From Cyclobacterium plantarum (lineage in GTDB: Bacteria > Bacteroidota > Bacteroidia > Cytophagales > Cyclobacteriaceae): 32,495 nt of DNA. The notes under the pieces are model-generated. The model was not told the DNA's origin, ran no database searches, and was given only the letters and a program-made list of their open reading frames with translations. This document shows, in pieces, positions 8,260-32,495 of the stretch. Location: contig NZ_JAANYN010000020.1 of assembly GCF_011290685.1 (NCBI RefSeq), positions 1-32,495 of the forward strand, read 5' to 3'. The position numbers and the translations under genes were made by a program. The first letter of the stretch is position 1. Every line of letters starts with the position of its first letter.

Positions 8260-9627
8260 TCAACCCGTAATTTTTTTGACCCTCAGGGAAGTCCCTTCTG
8301 TACTGATTACCTGAATTTGTTCGCCCCTATCTATAAATTCTCCTCTGGAATAAGCATCATACATTTCGTCATCAATCAGCACTTTCCCGCTCGGCATCAA
8401 CCGGGTATGAGAGATGCCCTTTTTTCCCAACATTTCACTGCTATAAAAAGATGAGGTATATCCCTCCGTTTTTTGTTGGGTGGTGGACAAAGAAATTCTA
8501 CTAAAGCTTTCCCATTGATTGATTTTAGGAGTTAAGGTAAAAATTAATACAGTAGCCACAATTGCAGAAAGGATCACGGTCAATAAAGCGGCAAACAATT
8601 TCCCTGAACTTACAAAAGTAAAATCAAACTGTTCATTGGGGAGCATGCCCATGGTGAGTCCGGCCAATACACAGATTATTCCCAGGATGCCAAAAACCCC
8701 AAAACCCGGTACAACAAATATCTCCACGGCCAGCAGGATAATGCCCACTACAAAAATCACCAGTTCCAGGTTGCTGGCCAGACCGGTGAGGTAATAGGGG
8801 ATAAAATAAAGCAGCACTGCCAGGGCACTGGCAGCCAATGGAAATCCAATCCCCGGGGTTTGGATTTCAAAATAAATCCCTGCAAAAATGATCAGAATCA
8901 AAAAGCCACTTACGGCGGGATTCAGAAAAAAAGCGATGATATCCTCCACTACCGAGGGGGAATAATAATATATCTCAAAATTTTCGATACCGTTACGGGC
9001 TACTATTTCGTTGATGGAGGAAACTTCTGCTTCGCAAAATCCATGTTGAATCGCTTCTGATACAGAAAAGGTAACCACCTCCCCCTCTTTGGATATCCCT
9101 TCTATTTCAATATTCTCATCCACCATGGCTTCTGCTATTCGGGGATCGCGACCGGAGGCCTCAGCTGTACTCCGCATGATGGAACGCATGTAGGACTGGT
9201 ATTTGTCGGGAGCAGCTTCTCCGGTACCGCCCATCACTACCGTGGCGGCCCCGATACTGCCCCCTCTCGCCATGTATATGCTGTCACAGGCAATGGAAAT
9301 CAATGCACCGGCGGATGCGGCATCTTTGTCAATAAAGGAATGGATCGGGGTTGGAGATTCCAAAAACAGGGTACGGATTTCATCCGCATCAGTAACCGCC
9401 CCACCATAGGTATCCATGTGCACAATGATCATGGCCGCATTTTTATCCCGGGCATCCTCCAATGCCAGTTTTACTTTCCTCGTCATTCGGGGGTCTATAT
9501 CGCTTTTCATATCAAAAACATATACCGTTTTCAAAGAATCTGCCGGTTTTCTATCTTGAGCGAAAACTTCCATACTTCCCTGAAACCCTATGAATGCGTA
9601 AAGCATTAATCCAAATACCAATTTCAT
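8260..9627 (-). CDS. NfeD-family membrane-bound serine protease
   Basis: A 455-residue protein with a signal peptide (residues 1-24, ending VFAQD). A ClpP-like (SppA-type) serine protease domain follows: VHMDTYGGAV is the oxyanion-hole segment, and DKDAASAGALISIACD carries the catalytic serine. Next are four to five membrane helices between about residues 235 and 365. The C-terminal OB-fold NfeD domain (about 390-455) contains LGKKGISHTRLMPSGKVLIDDEMYDAYSRG. This is the long (NfeD1a-like) form that is normally paired with a flotillin or stomatin-like protein. No such partner is seen here. The gene reads toward plsC, gatC and the TPR protein. Confidence 0.92.
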   Translation of the reverse strand: MKLVFGLMLYAFIGFQGSMEVFAQDRKPADSLKTVYVFDMKSDIDPRMTRKVKLALEDARDKNAAMIIVHMDTYGGAVTDADEIRTLFLESPTPIHSFIDKDAASAGALISIACDSIYMARGGSIGAATVVMGGTGEAAPDKYQSYMRSIMRSTAEASGRDPRIAEAMVDENIEIEGISKEGEVVTFSVSEAIQHGFCEAEVSSINEIVARNGIENFEIYYYSPSVVEDIIAFFLNPAVSGFLILIIFAGIYFEIQTPGIGFPLAASALAVLLYFIPYYLTGLASNLELVIFVVGIILLAVEIFVVPGFGVFGILGIICVLAGLTMGMLPNEQFDFTFVSSGKLFAALLTVILSAIVATVLIFTLTPKINQWESFSRISLSTTQQKTEGYTSSFYSSEMLGKKGISHTRLMPSGKVLIDDEMYDAYSRGEFIDRGEQIQVISTEGTSLRVKKITG

Positions 9628-9657
9628 TTTCTGATAGATTTATTATTTCCGTTTGAA

Positions 9658-9694
9658 TATACCAATAAAAACAATGAAAGCCCGTATTGGTATA
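9658..9694. promoter_or_regulatory. 10-bp inverted repeat in a divergent promoter region
   Basis: TATACCAATA (9658-9667) and its exact complement TATTGGTATA (9685-9694) are separated by 17 nt. The repeat sits midway in the 145-nt gap between the divergent nfeD-like and LysM genes. Arm length and spacing suit a dimeric regulator's operator, or a hairpin in the 5' leader of either gene. No regulator gene is adjacent. Confidence 0.4.
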
Positions 9695-9772
9695 ATATGG
9701 AGTTGCAATTGATAAAATAAATATCAAATTTGCATCAAGTTTGGGTAATTATTGTCAGAAAACTGTAATAAC

Positions 9773-10984
9773 ATGAAGTACTGGATTTTGATTTTGGGGT
9801 TAATTGGTATCGCTTTGCCTTCTGAAGGCAATATATTGGTATCCATTGATTCGGTAGGAATAGAGCGTGAGGGGGAAAAATCCTATATCATCCATCAGGT
9901 AGAACCCCAGGAAACCCTCTTTGCGATATCGAGGCGATACGGCGCCCCCGTAGGGGATATTGTACAAAGCAACGATAACCTGAAAGCCGGTTTAAAATCA
10001 GGGCAGCGCATTCGGGTTCCTTTTGTGGAAAAGGTGATGGTTTCCAAAGATGCCAAAATTCACAAGGTAATCCCCGGAGAAACGCTTTTCTCCATTTCCA
10101 AAAGTTATCAGGTGGAGATAGAAGAATTGATGGAATGGAATGACCTGAAAGGAAATGACCTTAGCGTCGGCCAAGCCCTGATCATCAAAGGACTAGGGGA
10201 AAAAACGGAGCCTGTTGCCAAAGAAAAAATTGAAGAGACGGCAGAATTGGCCGATCAGACCGTGGCAGTAACTAATGAAAAGGTAAGCAATAAACCGGAA
10301 AAAATAAAACCGAAAAAAAACACTGAAGATACACCGGGTAAAAATGAATCCCCTGTGAGTGAAGCCAAGAAAACGCCCGACACCAAAAACCTGGTATCTC
10401 CTGAGGGCAACTGGATTTCACATCAGGTAGCTCAGGGCGAAACTTTGTTTGCCATAGCCAGAAAATATGATTCCCGGGTAGAGGATCTTATTCAGTGGAA
10501 TGGCCTTTCTTCCAATAATCTTTCCATAGGACAAACGCTCAAAGTGGGAAGGGAAGTCAACCCAAATATTCCTGTAAGTCAATTGCCGGCCCCTAAAAAC
10601 AATACTACAAAAGCAACACCAGAAAATCCTCGCCCGGAGAGAAAAAGCATTCCTTCTTCATCCGGAAGTTCTTCTTCGACTTCTTCCCGCACAAGCAATG
10701 TAAGTACCTCAACAGCATTCAGAAATGTCAAGGAAAGCGGACAGGCAGAGGTAATTGAAGGGACTGGTAACCACAAAAAATACCTCGCACTTCACCGGAC
10801 GGCCCCTGTTGGCACCATCATGAGGATCAGAAATGAAGAGAATGACGTTACTGTTTTTGCCAGAGTGGTGGGGGTACTTCCGGAAACCGGTGACAACAAC
10901 AAACTGCTGATCAAGGTTTCAAAGGCCGCTTTTGACCAGCTCAAAGCGGTTAATTCCCGCTTCAGGGTAGAGGTATCTTATTGA
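9773..10984 (+). CDS. LysM peptidoglycan-binding protein with RlpA-like C-terminus
   Basis: An exported 403-residue envelope protein. A signal peptide covers about residues 1-20. Three LysM domains bind glycan strands: about 38-84 (YIIHQVEPQETLFAISRRYG), 96-139 (HKVIPGETLFSISKSYQV) and 216-258 (HQVAQGETLFAIARKYDS). They are joined by lysine/glutamate and Ser/Thr-rich linkers (about 142-210 and 262-318). The last 80 residues (GTGNHKKYLALHRTAPVGTIMRI..) resemble the double-psi beta-barrel of RlpA-like proteins. The start is set at ATG 9773 because MKYWILILGLIG begins a signal peptide; a TTG at 9752 would put seven polar residues ahead of it. Likely role: cell-wall binding or remodelling. Confidence 0.88.
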   Translation: MKYWILILGLIGIALPSEGNILVSIDSVGIEREGEKSYIIHQVEPQETLFAISRRYGAPVGDIVQSNDNLKAGLKSGQRIRVPFVEKVMVSKDAKIHKVIPGETLFSISKSYQVEIEELMEWNDLKGNDLSVGQALIIKGLGEKTEPVAKEKIEETAELADQTVAVTNEKVSNKPEKIKPKKNTEDTPGKNESPVSEAKKTPDTKNLVSPEGNWISHQVAQGETLFAIARKYDSRVEDLIQWNGLSSNNLSIGQTLKVGREVNPNIPVSQLPAPKNNTTKATPENPRPERKSIPSSSGSSSSTSSRTSNVSTSTAFRNVKESGQAEVIEGTGNHKKYLALHRTAPVGTIMRIRNEENDVTVFARVVGVLPETGDNNKLLIKVSKAAFDQLKAVNSRFRVEVSY

Positions 10985-10994
10985 ATAAAATCTT

Positions 10995-11041
10995 AAAAAC
11001 CGGGACTTTTCACACCTTCTTTCCGGTTTTTCAACAGACCA
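10995..11041 (+). terminator. Possible terminator after the LysM gene
   Basis: A 9-bp stem (AAAAACCGG 10995-11003 with CCGGTTTTT 11033-11041) ends in a T run that also forms part of the stem. The loop is long (29 nt), which makes it weaker than the other terminators in the window. The remainder of the 205-nt gap to pdxA shows nothing I recognise. Confidence 0.45.
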
Positions 11042-11189
11042 ATCCGGTCAGGGCATATTGAATTTGCCAGTGATCCTGTTTTCAACCTGCCTTAATAGAT
11101 AGAAAGGAAGTTTGATAAGGGATAAAATTTTAATGATTAAATTGGCAGGAATAACATTTCAGCAACAGACACCCATGTTTTTATAGCGC

Positions 11190-12212
11190 ATGAATATTAA
11201 AAAAAACAAACCCGTAATTGGCATCAGCATTGGAGACATCAATGGAATTGGTGCGGAGGTAACCATGAAAGCCTTACAGGACAGCAGGCTGCAAAAAATG
11301 GTCACCCCGGTAATCTACGGACATGGTAAAGCCATTACCTATTACAGGAAAATAATGGAGATGAATGATTTCAATTTTATGCAGATAAAAAGTATAGAAG
11401 AAATCCACCACAAAAAAACCAACGTGATCAATGTGGTCCAGGAATCTCCTGAAGTCATGCCGGGCGTAGAGACCAGAGAGGCGGGCAATATGGCCCTGGC
11501 CGCCCTGGACCAGGCCATCGTAGACTTGAAAAGTCAACACCTGGATGCCCTGGTTACGGCTCCCTTAAATAAAAGCAATATCAACAGTGCGGAAACCCCT
11601 TTTATCGGCCATACAGAATACCTGGCAGATGCCTTTGAAACGAAAAAAAACCTGATGTTTATGGTTTCTGAAGACATGCGTATAGGCCTGGTTACGGGAC
11701 ATCTTCCGTTGAAATCTATAACAGCTAACATAACCGCAGAATCCATTAAGGCCAAGCTAAAAATCATGCTCAAATCTCTCACGCAGGATTTTGGTATTGC
11801 AAAACCGAAAATTGCGGTTTTGGGACTGAATCCACATGCAGGGGAGGATGGTCTTTTGGGAACCGAAGAACAGGAAATTATCCTTCCTGTGGTCAAAGAA
11901 TTTAAAGAGAGGGGGGAATTGGTCTTTGGCCCTTATCCTTCAGATGGATTTTTCGGTATGATGCATCAAAAGAAATTTGATGGGGTATTGGCCATGTATC
12001 ACGATCAGGGCTTGATTCCATTTAAAACAATATCCTTTGAAAACGGGGTGAATTTCACTGCTGGCCTACCCATCATCAGAACAAGCCCGGACCATGGAAC
12101 GGCTTATAATATTGCAGGTAAAAACGCTGCAAATGAAGGTTCCATGCGTACAGCCATTTTTCTGGCCCATGATATCATCCGGAGGAAAGGGGATTGGGAA
12201 GCAGGCAGTTGA
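11190..12212 (+). CDS. pdxA: 4-hydroxythreonine-4-phosphate dehydrogenase
   Basis: Oxidises 4-phosphohydroxy-L-threonine with NAD(P) in the DXP-dependent pathway to pyridoxal phosphate. At 340 residues its length is typical. Visible family blocks are the N-terminal PVIGISIGDINGIGAEVTMKAL, ALVTAPLNKSNI, the metal-binding PFIGHTEYLAD, VLGLNPHAGEDG, MYHDQGLIPFKT (metal and substrate residues), and RTSPDHGTAYNIAGK near the C-terminus. pdxJ, the next pathway enzyme, is not in the window. A new promoter probably separates it from the DUF177 gene 66 nt downstream. Confidence 0.96.
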   Translation: MNIKKNKPVIGISIGDINGIGAEVTMKALQDSRLQKMVTPVIYGHGKAITYYRKIMEMNDFNFMQIKSIEEIHHKKTNVINVVQESPEVMPGVETREAGNMALAALDQAIVDLKSQHLDALVTAPLNKSNINSAETPFIGHTEYLADAFETKKNLMFMVSEDMRIGLVTGHLPLKSITANITAESIKAKLKIMLKSLTQDFGIAKPKIAVLGLNPHAGEDGLLGTEEQEIILPVVKEFKERGELVFGPYPSDGFFGMMHQKKFDGVLAMYHDQGLIPFKTISFENGVNFTAGLPIIRTSPDHGTAYNIAGKNAANEGSMRTAIFLAHDIIRRKGDWEAGS

Positions 12213-12278: not shown

Positions 12279-12827
12279 ATGAAATTCATAAGGAAATTCG
12301 ATATCGACATCATCCGATTGAAAGAGGGGGAGCATCATTTCAATTTTGAGATTGGCAGGGAGTTTCTGGATCACTTTGAAAAAATCAAGGATGTGGTCCA
12401 CCAAATTGACCTTAAAGTTGATGTGTGCCTGGACAGAAAAACCAATCTTATCGAAGCGGATTTTTCCATTTCAGGTACGGTAGGGCTCACCTGTGACCGT
12501 AGCCTGGAAAAGTTTGAGCATGCCCTGGATGTAAAGAATAAAATCCTTTACAAATACGGTATGGAAGAAAAGGAAATCAATGAAGAGGTTTTCCAGATTA
12601 CTCCAGATACGCCAAGTATTAACGTGGCACAGCTGATATATGAATTTATCCTGCTGGCCATTCCGGCGAAGAAGATCCATCCGGACCACAGGACCGAAGA
12701 AGATGAATCAGCGGAGGATGACGGATGGATTGTCTACGCAGCTGGAAACGAAGCAGAAAAAGAAGACGATATAGCCGGCCAAAACCCGTTTTGGGAGGCT
12801 TTGAAAAAATTAAAAAATAACGAATAA
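12279..12827 (+). CDS. DUF177 (YceD-family) protein
   Basis: A 182-residue protein of the YceD/DUF177 family, which is almost always encoded just before rpmF and in other organisms is linked to 23S rRNA accumulation. Family features are the predicted beta-rich N-terminal half (FDIDIIRLKEGEHHFNFEIG), the central SGTVGLTCDRSLEKFEHAL, and the acidic C-terminal tail (DHRTEEDESAEDDG, then NPFWEALKKLKNNE). Only one cysteine of the usual CxRC-like site is present (LTCDRS). The gene ends 18 nt before rpmF; shared transcription down to the terminator at 13056 is very likely. Confidence 0.88.
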   Translation: MKFIRKFDIDIIRLKEGEHHFNFEIGREFLDHFEKIKDVVHQIDLKVDVCLDRKTNLIEADFSISGTVGLTCDRSLEKFEHALDVKNKILYKYGMEEKEINEEVFQITPDTPSINVAQLIYEFILLAIPAKKIHPDHRTEEDESAEDDGWIVYAAGNEAEKEDDIAGQNPFWEALKKLKNNE

Positions 12828-12845
12828 TCTAAAAATCACATAGAT

Positions 12846-13037
12846 ATGGCACATCCTAAAAGGAAAATTTCCAAAACAAGACGAGACAAAAGAAGGACAC
12901 ATTATAAATTAAATGCTCCCGGACTGGCTCAATGCCCCACAACCGGTGAATTTCACCTGCCTCACAGGGCATTTTGGTTGGATGGTAAATTATATTATAA
13001 AGGCCAGGTGATCATTGAAAAAGAGGTTTTGGCCTGA
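12846..13037 (+). CDS. rpmF: 50S ribosomal protein L32
   Basis: A 63-residue large-subunit ribosomal protein. The basic N-terminus [20 protein letters not shown] and the later [15 protein letters not shown] are diagnostic of L32. It has a single cysteine rather than the CxxC pairs of zinc-ribbon L32, so it is the zinc-independent form, as is usual in Bacteroidota. It follows the DUF177 gene closely and is followed by a strong terminator. Confidence 0.97.
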
Positions 13038-13055
13038 TTGATACAGGTTCAATTT

Positions 13056-13099
13056 AAAGCTGCCATGGAAATGACTTCTCTGGCAGCTTTTATTTTTTT
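13056..13099 (+). terminator. Rho-independent terminator of the DUF177-rpmF operon
   Basis: A perfect 10-bp stem (AAAGCTGCCA 13056-13065 with TGGCAGCTTT 13081-13090) with a 15-nt loop is followed by TATTTTTTT (13091-13099). It lies between rpmF and the convergent gene ending at 13118. Confidence 0.88.
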
Positions 13100-13117
13100 A
13101 AACAATCCAATTCCAAT

Positions 13118-14677
13118 TCATTTTTCCAAACGGGATTTTTCCAGAAATTTTTGCCGGATGACCTGCTGAACAGGTATGTTCCCGATTTTGCTTTCCAGCC
13201 AGGAAATGATGTCCAGGTATAAAAAAGCCCGTTTTTCAAAGGGGTGGTTTTCGTAGATTTTGAGTTTTTCCCTCAGGTCAATAAATGCACCTTTGAGCTC
13301 ATGGTCGTAAATCCGGCTTAGCTTTCTGACAAAACGCATCATTTCTTTTTGAACCTGGTGCAAGTCATCCATCTTGATCAAAAACCGATACACATTCCGA
13401 ATCTGCCCATCAAGCTTCTCATCCAGTCCTGCTTCATAGCTGGCGATAAGCTTCAGGATATGGGCAAAACATTGCAGGTCTTCCCGCAGGCCATCCTGGT
13501 TGTTTTCAATAACCTGATCCAGGTAAAAAATAGCCCTTTCATTGTCCCCATGGCCAAAATAAAGACAGGCTACTTTATAGTGCAACACCATCAGGTGGTG
13601 AATATCCAACTTATTTTTAATAGGTTCCATCTCCTTCATCAGGACCGGCACCAATTGCTTTACGCCCTCTGAAAATTCTCCCTTTAAAAAATGAATGTTG
13701 AGCAGGTTGGAATAAAGGTATAAAAATGCCAGAATCCGGCTATTGTCATCCATCACAAAGTCTCCTTGCTTCAGGCTTGCCCTGAATTCATCCAACACCT
13801 CCGAAAACCGACCGTAGTAACCCAAATAAAAAAGGGTATCCAGCAGGTAGTGATAAGCCTTCAGGTAATTACCGGTGGCCACCCGGATCATGTGTGGGGA
13901 TTGTTGGAACAAATCCACCCAATGCTGTGCTGCCCTGTAGCAAAGCGGGAAATCCTGGATAATATGAAAATACCACACCTGGGCCTGAAAAAGGTACATT
14001 TTCTCGTAAAAGCCCAGATCAGCAAGGGTGTAATCAGGCAAATTGCTTTGATAAAAATTTTCCAGTTTCCGTCTCCCCTCTTTGTCCTTGATGTACCCTG
14101 TTTTCAAATATATGCCGTACAATTGAAGAGAAAGGCTGGAAAAGCGATTTTTCAGATCTACCCGGTGAGAAAGTTCCGATGATTCCTGCCCAAGGAGCTC
14201 GGCCCTGTTTCTTATACTTCTGGTAATGTGCTGGGATTCGATCACCTTTTCCATCTCTACCACACGAAGCATCACGGTATCCAGCCCATACTGCCCGGCC
14301 ACATGCTTTGCTTTATCCAAAACCTTCAGACTTTGCATGTACAAGCCCTTATTAAACAAAATCCTGCCAAAATCAATCTGTTCATTCAGCTGGAGCTCTA
14401 CATTGCGGTCTGCATACAAGAGCCGAAGGGAGGTCAGCACCTGCTGGTACAAATGCCCCTTCATGTTCGACAACTGCTTTTTGCCTACCGGTGCTTTTTT
14501 TAACAGCAGGGCTTCATCATATTCATCCATTTTATCCAGCACATCAAAAAGCATCAGGAATTTGGCATTCTGATTAGATGAAAGCCTTTTGGCATACAGC
14601 TTGAAACTCCGCTTTTCAGAGGGGGACAAGCTGCCAATCAAATCAAAGAGAAAATCTTTTCTAAAATTGGATATCAT
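13118..14677 (-). CDS. Hypothetical cytoplasmic helical-repeat (TPR-like) protein, 519 aa
   Basis: Not assigned to a named family. There is no signal peptide and no membrane segment. The whole chain is rich in amphipathic helices with TPR-like spacing of aromatic and small residues (for example FGRILFNKGLYMQSLKVLDK at about residues 107-126, HYKVACLYFGHGDNERAIFY at about 368-387). The start MISNFRKDFLFDLIGSLSPSEKRSFKLY resembles conserved Bacteroidota proteins of this length. It stands alone and is divergent from leuA, with a 140-nt AT-rich gap between them. I infer a scaffold or regulatory helical-repeat protein; no catalytic motif is seen. Confidence 0.82.
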   Translation of the reverse strand: MISNFRKDFLFDLIGSLSPSEKRSFKLYAKRLSSNQNAKFLMLFDVLDKMDEYDEALLLKKAPVGKKQLSNMKGHLYQQVLTSLRLLYADRNVELQLNEQIDFGRILFNKGLYMQSLKVLDKAKHVAGQYGLDTVMLRVVEMEKVIESQHITRSIRNRAELLGQESSELSHRVDLKNRFSSLSLQLYGIYLKTGYIKDKEGRRKLENFYQSNLPDYTLADLGFYEKMYLFQAQVWYFHIIQDFPLCYRAAQHWVDLFQQSPHMIRVATGNYLKAYHYLLDTLFYLGYYGRFSEVLDEFRASLKQGDFVMDDNSRILAFLYLYSNLLNIHFLKGEFSEGVKQLVPVLMKEMEPIKNKLDIHHLMVLHYKVACLYFGHGDNERAIFYLDQVIENNQDGLREDLQCFAHILKLIASYEAGLDEKLDGQIRNVYRFLIKMDDLHQVQKEMMRFVRKLSRIYDHELKGAFIDLREKLKIYENHPFEKRAFLYLDIISWLESKIGNIPVQQVIRQKFLEKSRLEK

Positions 14678-27858: not shown

Positions 27859-27960
27859 CTATCCAGTTTTTTTCAAATCCGCGAATAAATTTCCAACAAA
27901 TGGGAATAATGCCTCATTGGTATTCCGACAGTCCAACTGGCTGTTGATGGCCTACACATG

Positions 27961-28677
27961 TTATTCGGCAATAAAGCTATCATTATCCTTATCTTCAATC
28001 CAATTGTATTCAATTTCGAACGCAACATTTCGGGCAAATTCGATTCCATGCCTGTCTGCCAAAAACCCCAGGGCCATGTCCATACCAGCACTCACACCTG
28101 AAGAAGTGTAATATTTGTCATCCACTTTCCAACGTGCCTTTTTGTCCCAATTCACATTCGGACCCATTGATTCCACCCAGGAAAATGCCCGTTTATTCGT
28201 AGTGGCCTGCCTGCCATCCAAAAGACCGGACCTGGCAAGCAGCGCACTTCCCGTACAGACTGTCAATACATAGCTGCTCGCACCAGCTTTTTCCTTTATC
28301 TGCCCGATAAGCGATGGATTATCCACCTCCTTGCGCGTGCCCATGCCCCCTGGTATCAGTAGCAGGTAAGGATTAGCAGAAACCGTCTCCAATTTTTCGG
28401 TCAGGACTGATACCCCGTGTTTATTCTCAATTATCCCTCCATCAAGTGAATAGAATTTCAATGTATACAGGTCCGTAAGCCTTCCAAAAATTTCTACCGG
28501 ACCGAATACGTCCAGTGTTTCGTAATTGTCGAAAAGTAAAAAGGCAATTTCCATGGGATTACTTTTTGAGTCTTCAGTTATTTTTTCCTGGGCGAAAGAA
28601 CCGCCACTTGCGAAAATGGACAGGGCTACCATCCGTAGCTGCGGCAATAAAATGCCAGATTTTACAATTGCTTTCAT
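27961..28677 (-). CDS. Exported DJ-1/PfpI-family protein
   Basis: A 238-residue protein of the DJ-1/PfpI class I glutamine-amidotransferase-like superfamily. A signal peptide is likely at the N-terminus (about residues 1-30, ending SGGSFAQE). The core shows IAFLLFDNYETLDVFGPVE, LLIPGGMGTRKE, the nucleophile elbow VLTVCTGSALLARSGLLDG (catalytic cysteine), and ATTNKRAFSWVE, followed by YYTSSGVSAGMDMALGFLA. The wording is closest to the isocyanide-hydratase-like and transcription-regulator-like branch, but export argues against a regulator. Catalytic role unknown. Upstream (28678-28760) no promoter motif is clear. Confidence 0.85.
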   Translation of the reverse strand: MKAIVKSGILLPQLRMVALSIFASGGSFAQEKITEDSKSNPMEIAFLLFDNYETLDVFGPVEIFGRLTDLYTLKFYSLDGGIIENKHGVSVLTEKLETVSANPYLLLIPGGMGTRKEVDNPSLIGQIKEKAGASSYVLTVCTGSALLARSGLLDGRQATTNKRAFSWVESMGPNVNWDKKARWKVDDKYYTSSGVSAGMDMALGFLADRHGIEFARNVAFEIEYNWIEDKDNDSFIAE

Positions 28678-28761
28678 ACTTGATTTGTTAGTGGTTCTGA
28701 TTGGTAAATTAGTGAAAACAATTGATGAAAGGGTGTTCCATGGAAATTAAACGCCATTTCC

Positions 28762-28912
28762 GGGTACTTGGTAACGGTAAATTGTATGAGTAATGGCAGA
28801 TTGCGAAGAGTAATTTCCTGTCAAACCGCTACGCAGTTTAAACGGGTTACAAGCCTTGATATTTACCACTTTCCCTGCCATTACTTGTACAAAATGTTGT
28901 GCAACGTTTCTT
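28762..28912. repeat. Intergenic element bounded by an 18-bp imperfect inverted repeat (cassette-like)
   Basis: TTGTATGAGTAATGGCAG (28782-28799) is matched by the complement of CTGCCATTACTTGTACAA (28875-28892), with two mismatches in 18 bp. About 75 nt separate the arms. The outer flanks are TAACGGTAA on the left and TGTTGTGCAACGTTT on the right, the latter ending just before the helicase stop codon. This arrangement resembles attC-like or cassette-associated hairpins I know from Bacteroidota genomes, but canonical attC core boxes (GTTRRRY/RYYYAAC) are not evident. No T tract follows, so a terminator is unlikely. Confidence 0.55.
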
Positions 28913-28913
28913 A

Positions 28914-31898
28914 TTATCTGAATTTTAATAGTTGTATAAATCGAACAACCTTGTTAAATGCAATAGATGGAATTCCATCTGATAAATCCGCTATAATTAT
29001 TTCTTCTTGTTCAAGTATCGCAATAGCTAACTCCTTTGCATTTTCAACCTCAATTACCATGTTTTGAAGAGTTTTACTAAGATGAAGTACTGCAACTCTA
29101 TCGGTTAACCCTAATTCATAGAGAAATAATTTCATATTTGAATCAATACCATACTGCAAAAACAATGGCCAATTGAATATTAGTGAGTCTGGCACATATT
29201 CCTTGTCTTTAGCTATTTTAATACGTATAACAGAGGATGCAAGTGATTGTAAATTATAGGCAAGAAGGTTGTTTATTAAGCGAATTATCTTGTATACCTC
29301 TGTATTAAAGTCATGAGCTATTTGACTATACCAGTTACCTTCCATCCAAAGTCTTAATGCTTTGAGGACATCCTCATTTGATAGCTCATTTCCTTCTTTC
29401 ATCGTCCAAGCATTGAACTGTTGAAGTGCATTTTGAAATTCTTTGGATGAAAGTAGTCCATCTATTATCAAATAGTTTATCCAATCCTCGTCTAAAGGTG
29501 AATTGAATTCCTTTGTCCAAACCTCATTTTCAAAATCAAAAATTTCAGTTATTGATTTGAAACTCCTAAGAGAAGTTCCAGATAGCCGAATTTCTGCAAA
29601 GGTCCCTTCTTCAATATAACTTCTTATTTTATTGGCACGTAATTGAAATATCTGTTCTTGCGTTTTCTTTTCATCTTCAGTTGCCTGATGATAGCTTAAT
29701 GTATTTGATAGCATGTTACCAACTGCTTGCTCTAGGTCTTCTGGGTCAATATCTTCAGATAGTAGGTCAATGAGTGAAATATCAATTGAATCCAACCATT
29801 GAAGAAATTCTTCATTTTGTGCATCAAGGATTTCATTAGTAAGTTTAATTCCTTTACGACTCAAAACGCCAGTAATATCACTTACTAGATTGTATAGCAT
29901 CCCATAAACCTCTTCCACTCCTTTGTCAAGAATCAATTGTTTAACGATATCTTTGTCCCGTGCATGTGGAACAATTATTAAACCTTTGGTTTCTTTTCCA
30001 GCACGACCAGCTCTACCAACTAAGTTTTTTAAACTTCGAACAGACATTTCCTTAAGAGCATTTCCATCATAACGCTGTGTGGAGTGCAAAACCATTGTAC
30101 GAATAGGAAGATTTACCCCTTCAGCCAAGGTTGTATTACAGACTACTAGCTTTATTTTTTCATCTCGTAAAGCATTTTCTACTACTTCGCGAACGTCTTG
30201 AGGAAGGTCTCCATGATGAAAAAGTGCTCCTACTTGAACCAATCTGGTAAGCAAGTAATCTTGTCCAAAAACTTCACTGAAATATTCCTGAAGATTTGTT
30301 GATAGCATTGCATCTGCATAATTGAGAGGATTATTAACAAGAATATGTTCATTGACCTGCCTTATTATCTCTTCACATAAATCTTCAACACCACGATGTC
30401 CTCGCTTTTCAGTTGTAAATAATGCCACAGCACCTGAAGGGAGTGCTCGTAATGCAGTAGCAACTGAAACGCTTTTGATTGCTGTTGTTGATTTCAGTTC
30501 TTCTTCCTTTTTATATTTTAAAGAATCTGAAACTAAGTATTTGAACAAATCATAGCGTTGCGGATAACTTGAAAGAGGATTAACAATCAGATTGTAATTA
30601 CCTTTCGTAGCTTTTTCCAAAAACCCATATTCGAGTTGAGTTGGTCTGTAGTCTGATTCAATAACTGTTTCATCTGAACCGCCTAACCAGCTATTAATAG
30701 TGCTGATATTGGGAATTATGGCAGAAATAAAGACGAACCTTCTACCTGGCTTATCATGAGATTTAAGCCTTGATAGCAATAACTCATAGCTTAACCCTCT
30801 CTGTTCATCATCAAGTAAATGACCTTCATCACAAATTATCGTATCAAATGTGTCAAGAATCTCAGGTAATGCATCTTCAACAGCCAACATTTTTTCAGGC
30901 GTTGAAACCAATAGGCTTACGGACTCTATTGCCCCTCGCTCATCAGTACTTGGCAAATGTCCACCATAAATACTCTTAGTAGAAATACCCAACCTTCGAA
31001 GATGAGTCCCCATGCTTTGATTCAATTCAGCAGCAAGGGACCGAAACGGTGCCAAGTATAGTGTCCTGTGTTCTGGGTTTATTTTCCATGAATTATAGAT
31101 TACTAATTCACTTATAGCAGTTTTTCCTGCGCTTGTTGGCATTTGAAGTGAAATAGTTTGCTCACTTAAAACTCCAGAAGTTAAAGCTCGTTTTTGAGAA
31201 GGAAAGAAACTCCAAAAAGGTACAGAACGTTTAATACAATACCTTACAAAAGGCTTCCAATGCTCTCTATCATCTTTATACTTTAACAAATCGAACCAGA
31301 TATTATCTCTTTGAAATTTCTTTAGGATTGCCAAAGCAAGTATACAAGAGTGGTAACTTTCAGCATTATTTTCTTCCAAACTAATTTGATTATTTATTTC
31401 TCTCTCTAATGCTTTTAACTGTTCGTCTTCTCCATCAGATAAAAAACTTTGAAGTTGCAGCCCAAACTCGTTATCTAAATTTATTTTACGAGCTAGAAAT
31501 CCAATTATAAATTTATCTGTAATAGATTCATAATCTGCCTCATTAAATTTGCGTGCTAGTAATAAAGCAGATGCAGAAAAGTCAGATAAATAATACATGC
31601 CTGATGCATATAACATATTGTCATGAAAACTAATTCCTTGAAATGTTTCTCGTTTACCTTCTAGCGAAAAAATAACTAAACCACTACCTATAGCAAGTAT
31701 ATCTTTCTTTTGCTCTTCTGAAAATTTGTTTTGTTTCAATACGTCAAATGCTCTACAAAACAAGGTGATATAAAAATCATCAAAAATTGGGAGGAATGAA
31801 TAATTCGCACGATCATCTTTAGGCAAGTCAAAATCTTTAAATGCTTGCCAAGATTCCGATTGTGCAATCCAAAGGTTCAATTGTTTGGTTAGACTCAT
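28914..31898 (-). CDS. Ski2-like superfamily 2 helicase, probable HamB (Hachiman defence)
   Basis: A 994-residue helicase. About 235 residues of helical N-terminal region precede the motor. The motor motifs are FFPSQKRAL (Q-like, about 231), PTSAGKT (motif I, 254-260), APFRSLAAEL (Ia), STPEKM (Ib), DEGH (II, 357-360), SAIIP (III, 392-396), TLAEGVNLP (V, 590-598), and LVGRAGRAGK (VI, 626-635). The DEGH box and the GRAGRAGK motif place it with Ski2/Mer3-type SF2 enzymes. The last 350 residues lack known motifs. The start overlaps the stop of the upstream nuclease-like gene (ATGA, 31898-31895), implying coupling. Nuclease-then-Ski2 helicase is the HamA-HamB order of the Hachiman anti-phage system. 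Visibly AT-richer than the rest of the window, pointing to transfer. Confidence 0.8.
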   Translation of the reverse strand: MSLTKQLNLWIAQSESWQAFKDFDLPKDDRANYSFLPIFDDFYITLFCRAFDVLKQNKFSEEQKKDILAIGSGLVIFSLEGKRETFQGISFHDNMLYASGMYYLSDFSASALLLARKFNEADYESITDKFIIGFLARKINLDNEFGLQLQSFLSDGEDEQLKALEREINNQISLEENNAESYHSCILALAILKKFQRDNIWFDLLKYKDDREHWKPFVRYCIKRSVPFWSFFPSQKRALTSGVLSEQTISLQMPTSAGKTAISELVIYNSWKINPEHRTLYLAPFRSLAAELNQSMGTHLRRLGISTKSIYGGHLPSTDERGAIESVSLLVSTPEKMLAVEDALPEILDTFDTIICDEGHLLDDEQRGLSYELLLSRLKSHDKPGRRFVFISAIIPNISTINSWLGGSDETVIESDYRPTQLEYGFLEKATKGNYNLIVNPLSSYPQRYDLFKYLVSDSLKYKKEEELKSTTAIKSVSVATALRALPSGAVALFTTEKRGHRGVEDLCEEIIRQVNEHILVNNPLNYADAMLSTNLQEYFSEVFGQDYLLTRLVQVGALFHHGDLPQDVREVVENALRDEKIKLVVCNTTLAEGVNLPIRTMVLHSTQRYDGNALKEMSVRSLKNLVGRAGRAGKETKGLIIVPHARDKDIVKQLILDKGVEEVYGMLYNLVSDITGVLSRKGIKLTNEILDAQNEEFLQWLDSIDISLIDLLSEDIDPEDLEQAVGNMLSNTLSYHQATEDEKKTQEQIFQLRANKIRSYIEEGTFAEIRLSGTSLRSFKSITEIFDFENEVWTKEFNSPLDEDWINYLIIDGLLSSKEFQNALQQFNAWTMKEGNELSNEDVLKALRLWMEGNWYSQIAHDFNTEVYKIIRLINNLLAYNLQSLASSVIRIKIAKDKEYVPDSLIFNWPLFLQYGIDSNMKLFLYELGLTDRVAVLHLSKTLQNMVIEVENAKELAIAILEQEEIIIADLSDGIPSIAFNKVVRFIQLLKFR

Positions 31899-32495
31899 TG
31901 TAAGTGGTTTAGCATTGCGTTATAAGTTTCTTCATATGCACTTTTAAGCTCTCGCATACTGATAACAGAAACTTCTATTTCATCATCATCCTTTTGAGTT
32001 TCCTTAGCTATTTCATCTTCAACAAGGTCATGATCTATGATGGCAATTGCATGAAATTTCTTATGATAAGTAGGGTTTTCGTCAAGAAATCGGTAACGAT
32101 TTATTGCCTCTCGCAATCGAGGTTTTCCATCTGTAGCAAGCCTATCGTGTATCCAATTAAGTGTTTTAGCCAGACGTTTTGTCTTATCATCTAATGCGCC
32201 ATTTATGGCATTTTGTATTGGTGCTGAATTACTTGCAGTAGCTTTCATTTTTGACTCTACCACTTCAATTCTATCATTATCCGAAGGCGTATGTTCATGA
32301 CGATGAAATACGACCACATCAGAACCGTGACAGGGTTTATTTTTATCCCCTTTCCATCGCCATTTTCGAGGACCGACAAACCAAATTCCGTCTTGTTGAC
32401 CCTTGTTTTTTAATAAAATAATTGAACAAGGCACTTTTTCAATAACTAAAAAGCAGGTATATTGACAGCGTAAGCAGAAAGTTATGGAAAAGCGG
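31895..32495 (-). CDS. PD-(D/E)XK nuclease-like protein, probable HamA (partial at window edge)
   Basis: The upstream (N-terminal) part runs off the right edge: the frame stays open from GTG 32434 to 32495 with no stop, so the true start is outside the window. In the visible 199 or so codons a PD-(D/E)XK-type core is seen: GSDVVVF (candidate metal-binding Asp, residue 39 from the GTG) and, about 20 residues later, RIEVVESKMKA (Glu-x-Lys, residues 60-62). Helical segments follow (NAINGALDDKTKRLAKTLNW) and then HAIAIIDHDLVED. The D...ExK layout and position directly before a Ski2-like helicase fit HamA (DUF1837). A different helicase-associated nuclease is the main alternative. Coupled to the helicase by a 4-nt overlap. 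Confidence 0.62.
   Translation of the reverse strand, partial: RFSITFCLRCQYTCFLVIEKVPCSIILLKNKGQQDGIWFVGPRKWRWKGDKNKPCHGSDVVVFHRHEHTPSDNDRIEVVESKMKATASNSAPIQNAINGALDDKTKRLAKTLNWIHDRLATDGKPRLREAINRYRFLDENPTYHKKFHAIAIIDHDLVEDEIAKETQKDDDEIEVSVISMRELKSAYEETYNAMLNHLQ

Follow-up and report, generated by a model that had tools for sequence, protein, structure and literature searches.

The 32,495 bp window analysed here is the whole of contig C12 in the draft genome of Cyclobacterium plantarum (6.17 Mb, 37 contigs), and at its right end it carries, on the minus strand, a hamA-hamB gene pair (28914..32421). It is very probable that both genes belong to Hachiman, in a subtype for which profiles exist and not a divergent one, and that the operon has been inactivated by an insertion sequence (IS) of the IS1595 family that entered hamA after codon 88. 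What is present is a real but broken Hachiman locus, and its apparent gene cassette context is the remaining interest.

The helicase gene hamB (28914..31898, minus strand) is an intact open reading frame (ORF) of 994 aa for a Ski2-like SF2 helicase, and the motifs listed for it in the initial annotation (PTSAGKT, DEGH and LVGRAGRAGK) are all present. The PADLOC (2023 version) HamB1 profile PDLC00194 matches it with 1093 bits across profile positions 2-990 of 995. The top PDB match was the HamB chain 8vx9_B (E 1.4e-45), with the Walker A PTSAGKT, DEGH and GRAGRA motifs aligned, and the D of DEGH aligned to residue 431, where mutation abolishes defence in the solved HamB, as stated in passages of PMC12278908. 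The next HamB profile scores 335 bits. Over 995 aligned columns the protein is 79% identical to HamB of Z. barbeyronii; among the records found to have a close HamB, this was the only one with a name. The initial annotation suggested a divergent variant, distinguished by long N- and C-terminal regions without recognisable motifs. This suggestion does not stand: the HamB1 profile covers the helicase almost end to end and, because it spans both terminal regions, they read as ordinary parts of HamB. Long termini are not distinguishing either, the solved HamB 8vx9_B being longer (1174 aa), with a core start at about residue 305 compared with 229 here. Among 59 genomes (the own genome and 58 relatives) the helicase query gave matches in 48, the best outside the own genome being in G013 (27% identity over about 430 residues) and the others short helicase-core matches. 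Among 181 plasmid records none matched at 80% coverage, the best showing 33% identity over 73%.

The hamA gene lies directly upstream, its ORF ending at 31895 in an ATGA overlap with the hamB start, as in Z. barbeyronii, so the coupling noted initially is correct. The window holds its 3′ piece (31895..32421, minus strand), corresponding roughly to residues 86-260 of Z. barbeyronii HamA. This piece retains the D...ExK core (SDVVVF...VESK), a motif also seen in Z. barbeyronii HamA. It scores 32.1 bits against Pfam HamA/DUF1837 (PF08878, cutoff 25), for which Z. barbeyronii HamA scores 38.5 bits, and 158.7 bits against the PADLOC HamA profile PDLC00160 (profile positions 103-262); no NCBIfam model matched it. 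Together with the HamB1 profile and the match to 8vx9_B, these results bear out the family assignment first made from motifs and gene order. Matches to PDLC00160 were found in 3 of 196 family genomes, the own genome included.

As the assembly reads, hamA is not complete at this locus, and its split bears on activity, not on family. The initial annotation took the nuclease gene merely to run off the window. Simple cropping was ruled out: the window end is the contig end and lies inside a repeat, one end of the IS1595-family element (32422..32495, minus strand), and the first ~24 residues of the upstream ORF are IS DNA. A HamA profile search of the genome located two pieces, one on C12 (31904-32377, profile 103-262) and one on C31 (578733-579014, profile 8-98, with a stop). 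C31 is 579,075 bp long and ends 61 bp beyond this 5′ piece, which scored 31.5 and 29.7 bits against PADLOC HamA profiles and matched no Pfam family. On C12 and C31 alike the IS end falls within the frame of hamA, and on C31 that frame meets a stop codon no more than 3 codons past the junction. Residues 1-89 of Z. barbeyronii HamA are matched at 79% identity by the C31 piece and residues 86-260 at 80% by the C12 piece; on Z. barbeyronii hamA DNA the two pieces overlap by exactly 8 nt (L028:5478-5485). An 8-bp target-site duplication, TTATTTTA, is found at 32414..32421 (minus strand), with the second copy next to the IS on C31 (L014:8993-9000), and the insertion starts exactly after hamA codon 88. 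An intact hamA of the PDLC00160 subtype elsewhere in the genome was considered and rejected, as profile searches gave only the two pieces and a gene of another subtype on C36.

The terminal 74 bp of C12 recur at five other places and the terminal 76 bp of C31 likewise at five, all contig ends. The opposite IS ends, which read TTGAAC...GTTCAA, each occur at at least six places, and all 12 are contig ends; the copy number is a minimum, with the best 40 of 51 candidates scored for the C31 end. When the 8-bp flanks of six left and six right ends were compared in a 6x6 matrix, each of the six left ends had exactly one perfect partner, and the perfect partner of C31 was C12 only. Target duplications of 8 bp are typical of the IS1595 family. 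A copy of the IS in G008 has an end 97% identical over 77 bp and a transposase matching DDE_Tnp_IS1595 (PF12762, 88.7 bits), and the sequence at the six left ends codes for the C-terminal 22-23 residues of a transposase with 91% identity to this copy. Partial or more distant transposase matches occur on C3, C35, C15 and C22. At least six IS1595-family copies break the assembly, and the duplications pair C31-C12, C1-C13, C34-C37, C6-C15, C6-C34 and C22-C16.

Independently of the duplication, C31 and C12 are placed as neighbours because their outer flanks lie beside each other in two other genomes. The C12 flank (to 28770) runs straight into the C31 flank (L014 from 4991 down) in G003, and 1,087 bp separate the two flanks in G006.

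Several observations weigh against the interpretation of an IS-inactivated Hachiman operon. The 8 bp on C31 differ from the C13 flank by one mismatch only, and but for the hamA homology the duplication would be weak evidence on its own. A complete copy of this IS was not found in the own genome, and no read spans C31, the IS and C12. HamA is only weakly similar to the solved HamA (E 0.01); the phmmer alignment to 8vx9_A sets the ExK motifs two columns apart, leaving their exact register unsettled, and a single-sequence model of Z. barbeyronii HamA was unusable (mean predicted local distance difference test score, pLDDT, of 38), leaving the PD-(D/E)XK fold unconfirmed. An in-frame ORF starting in the IS end could yield a truncated HamA with the catalytic core, so complete loss is unproven.

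This last point underlies the rival that survives best, in which the cell produces a C-terminal HamA that starts in the IS end and serves with HamB as a working or altered effector. The open frame from a GTG at 32434 does retain the D...ExK core and the ATGA coupling to hamB, but the first ~85 residues are gone, and the solved Hachiman has HamA residues 30-63 docked on HamB (passages of PMC12278908), making this reading improbable. Less probable again is that hamA is intact in the cell and that the break is an assembly artefact at a repeat. The assembly is a draft of 37 contigs and lacks spanning reads, as would suit an artefact, but the repeat end lies within the hamA frame on both contigs, the stop on C31 is at most 3 codons from the junction, and the 8-bp duplication flanks the element. 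That the helicase is a DNA-repair or other defence protein and not HamB is scarcely credible, since the matches to PRK02362 (ATP-dependent DNA helicase; NCBIfam, 160.7 bits, cutoff 887), Hel308 (136.8 bits, cutoff 1200), SngC (103 bits) and BrxHI (54 bits) are set against 1093 bits to PDLC00194 over nearly the full length, a coupled HamA gene, and the same pair in Z. barbeyronii.

In Hachiman, as described in parts of PMC12278908, HamB senses damaged DNA and releases HamA to degrade all DNA, both active sites being required, and HamA docks on HamB through residues 30-63, 102-117 and 159-199. By analogy, HamB of intact homologues such as the Z. barbeyronii pair would survey DNA, recognise damage and activate HamA, leading to DNA degradation. 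In C. plantarum the insertion would fall between the D-ExK catalytic core and the residues that correspond to the HamB-binding N-terminal part of HamA, and because of this separation a functional HamA is unlikely and HamB would be left without its effector. The hamAB copy on C12/C31 is therefore most likely inactive, with the hamB ORF intact. The locus would then be a case in which a transposon in the effector gene has naturally abolished a DNA-degrading defence, leaving the sensor helicase intact in a genome that also carries a second Hachiman subtype.

That second Hachiman pair is on C36 (L003:8735-9577 and 9574-11778), where both genes are intact and coupled and the nuclease scores 196 bits against Pfam HamA. 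One attC-like hairpin separates the pair from the type I restriction-modification operon that precedes it. This hairpin, about 40 bp upstream of hamA, is of the same family as those at the C12/C31 hamAB; a search after the C36 hamB found none.

The C12/C31 pair is flanked by hairpins. One attC-like hairpin, el3 (28766..28902, minus strand), lies 11 bp downstream of hamB and scores 108 bits with the covariance model R1, of which it is a training member. A second, in the same orientation as el3, precedes hamA by about 70 bp on C31 (L014:8533-8664); as single-stranded DNA this region gives a better fold than all but one of 200 shuffles (z -3.0). In Rfam, L014:8300-9076 gave only two matches, to one microRNA family (22.4 and 19 against a gathering score of 90), which were taken as chance.

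Beyond el3 lies the flank consisting of a DJ-1/PfpI gene and the bases after it (27876..28770). Among 10 other genomes searched, this flank was found at high identity only in G003 and G006, where it is beside the C31 flank without metal genes or hamAB. Because the C12 and C31 flanks adjoin or nearly adjoin there, as given above, the metal genes and hamAB are by this comparison extra DNA relative to both genomes. About 0.9 kb beside the hamAB site in G003 has no match to C31. The metal genes (C31, L014:5150-8403) encode, by Pfam, MerT with HMA, a CsoR-type repressor with HMA and a DsbD-like protein, and the first gene of the run appears ArsR-like by eye. This run forms a cassette-like unit right before hamA, with two adjacent predicted hairpins at its end.

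Model R1 was built from five elements including el3, so its sensitivity is unsure. In 17 sources it gave 18 matches at E<1e-4, five of them used for training; most of the weaker ones, up to E 1, were the same elements on the opposite strand. Hairpins at E<1e-4 are co-oriented, with 9/9 on the plus strand of C11 and 5/5 on the minus strand of G003 C1. In an alignment of all 18, which was fitted to the model and is hence biased towards the structure, pairing holds in 84.6% of cells, and two-sided changes are seen in 21 of 31 pairs, compared with 15.6 in shuffles (2/500 reach 21) and 5-10 in slid structures.

Both arrays are downstream of a tyrosine recombinase gene (C11:902976-904148; L113:17976-19148), whose G003 copy is 92% identical; the first C11 hairpin is about 5.7 kb beyond it. 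The recombinase scores 195.9 bits against TIGR02249, under the cutoff of 265, and its top PDB match is the XerC-like 4a8e. The C11 array (L113-L116; C11:902976-948819) has nine co-oriented attC-like hairpins behind this Xer-type recombinase, and its cargo includes a DarT-like and ADP-ribosylglycohydrolase pair, a UvrD-like helicase, a zeta-toxin-like kinase and an AraC-type regulator. Two group II intron reverse transcriptases/maturases with identical scores (L115:6404-7660 and 12371-13627) lie about 500 bp past two low-scoring C11 hairpins; some group II introns target attC sites. On G003 C1, two copies of another recombinase (L119:6657-7490 and 10397-11230), 33% identical to the array recombinase, are equidistant from two hairpins. 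No description of this hairpin array was found in the open-licence PMC literature, among the matches listed, which is no proof of absence.

A sequence made up of the 3′ end of the recombinase gene plus roughly the next 30 bp is found again at the hamAB site, where it ends ...ATACAGATG^TTG. The site without an insert in G003 reads ATACAAATG^TTGCAAGTACC, and the G006 site reads ATACAAATG^TTGTGG and continues into a different insert. The far junction is ACCG^TTACCAAGTACC here and ACCGCTTGCAAGTACC in G006. These junctions fit with cassette capture at one attachment site. When 18 further regions with the attI-like shared sequence were searched for hairpins, five had hairpins at E<=0.001 (six hairpins, 6/6 on the strand of the attI-like match), and partial recombinase matches were present in four.

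We regard as evenly balanced the proposal that hamAB belongs, as a gene cassette, to an integron-like platform with attC-like hairpins of ~130 bp and an Xer-type recombinase without the integron-integrase domain, a platform that would move defence, metal-resistance and toxin-antitoxin-like genes and in which the IS1595 element would have struck a cassette-borne defence gene. The pair between hairpin repeats may thus travel as a swappable cassette, although this mobility is inferred. Counting against such a platform, the far junction in G006 is not a clean G^TT, and 13 of the 18 attI-like regions have no hairpin. Two of the six hairpins found there are on the wrong side; the L134 hairpin is so placed and L130 has one on each side, which speaks against a uniform architecture. 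The hairpin before Z. barbeyronii hamA is weak, and neither that hamB nor the C36 hamB is followed by one. Against a standard integron, the recombinase lacks the integron-integrase additional domain (20 residues compared with 63 in IntI 2a3v), described in part of PMC9668308 as a defining feature, and its TIGR02249 score falls short of the cutoff. If the hairpin arrays are Xer-type recombination sites, the integrase domain held to define integrons would be unnecessary for cassette capture, and, if true, the defence genes of these marine bacteria would gain a directly testable transfer route.

With integrons and clusters of attC sites lacking integron-integrases (CALINs), the arrays share co-oriented hairpins between genes, a tyrosine recombinase at one end, left junctions compatible with G^TT, and content that varies at one site. 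The canonical attC terminal box is GTTRRRY, unlike the GTTGTGC found here. Integrons have already been reported in Bacteroidota, and phage-resistance cassettes are known (portions of PMC8618304).

Among Hachiman systems, the nearest is that of Z. barbeyronii KMM 6746 (hamA, L028:5222-6004; hamB, L028:6001-8988), with 79-80% protein identity in both genes and the same order, ATGA coupling and PADLOC profiles. Its hamA is uninterrupted (260 aa) and coupled to a hamB of 995 aa. The DNA match to C12/C31 is limited to hamAB and ~110 bp before it; upstream of hamA there is a weak hairpin match (E 0.065), with none after hamB. The C36 pair is of another subtype, its HamB (734 aa) showing 25% identity to the C12 HamB over 124 residues. 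The solved Hachiman (8vx9, 8vxa, 8vxc and 8vxy; described in part of PMC12278908) differs in its weakly similar HamA and in the greater length of its HamB compared with the 994 aa here, while the HamB core motifs, the D of DEGH among them, line up, and the D-ExK motif of HamA is common to both.

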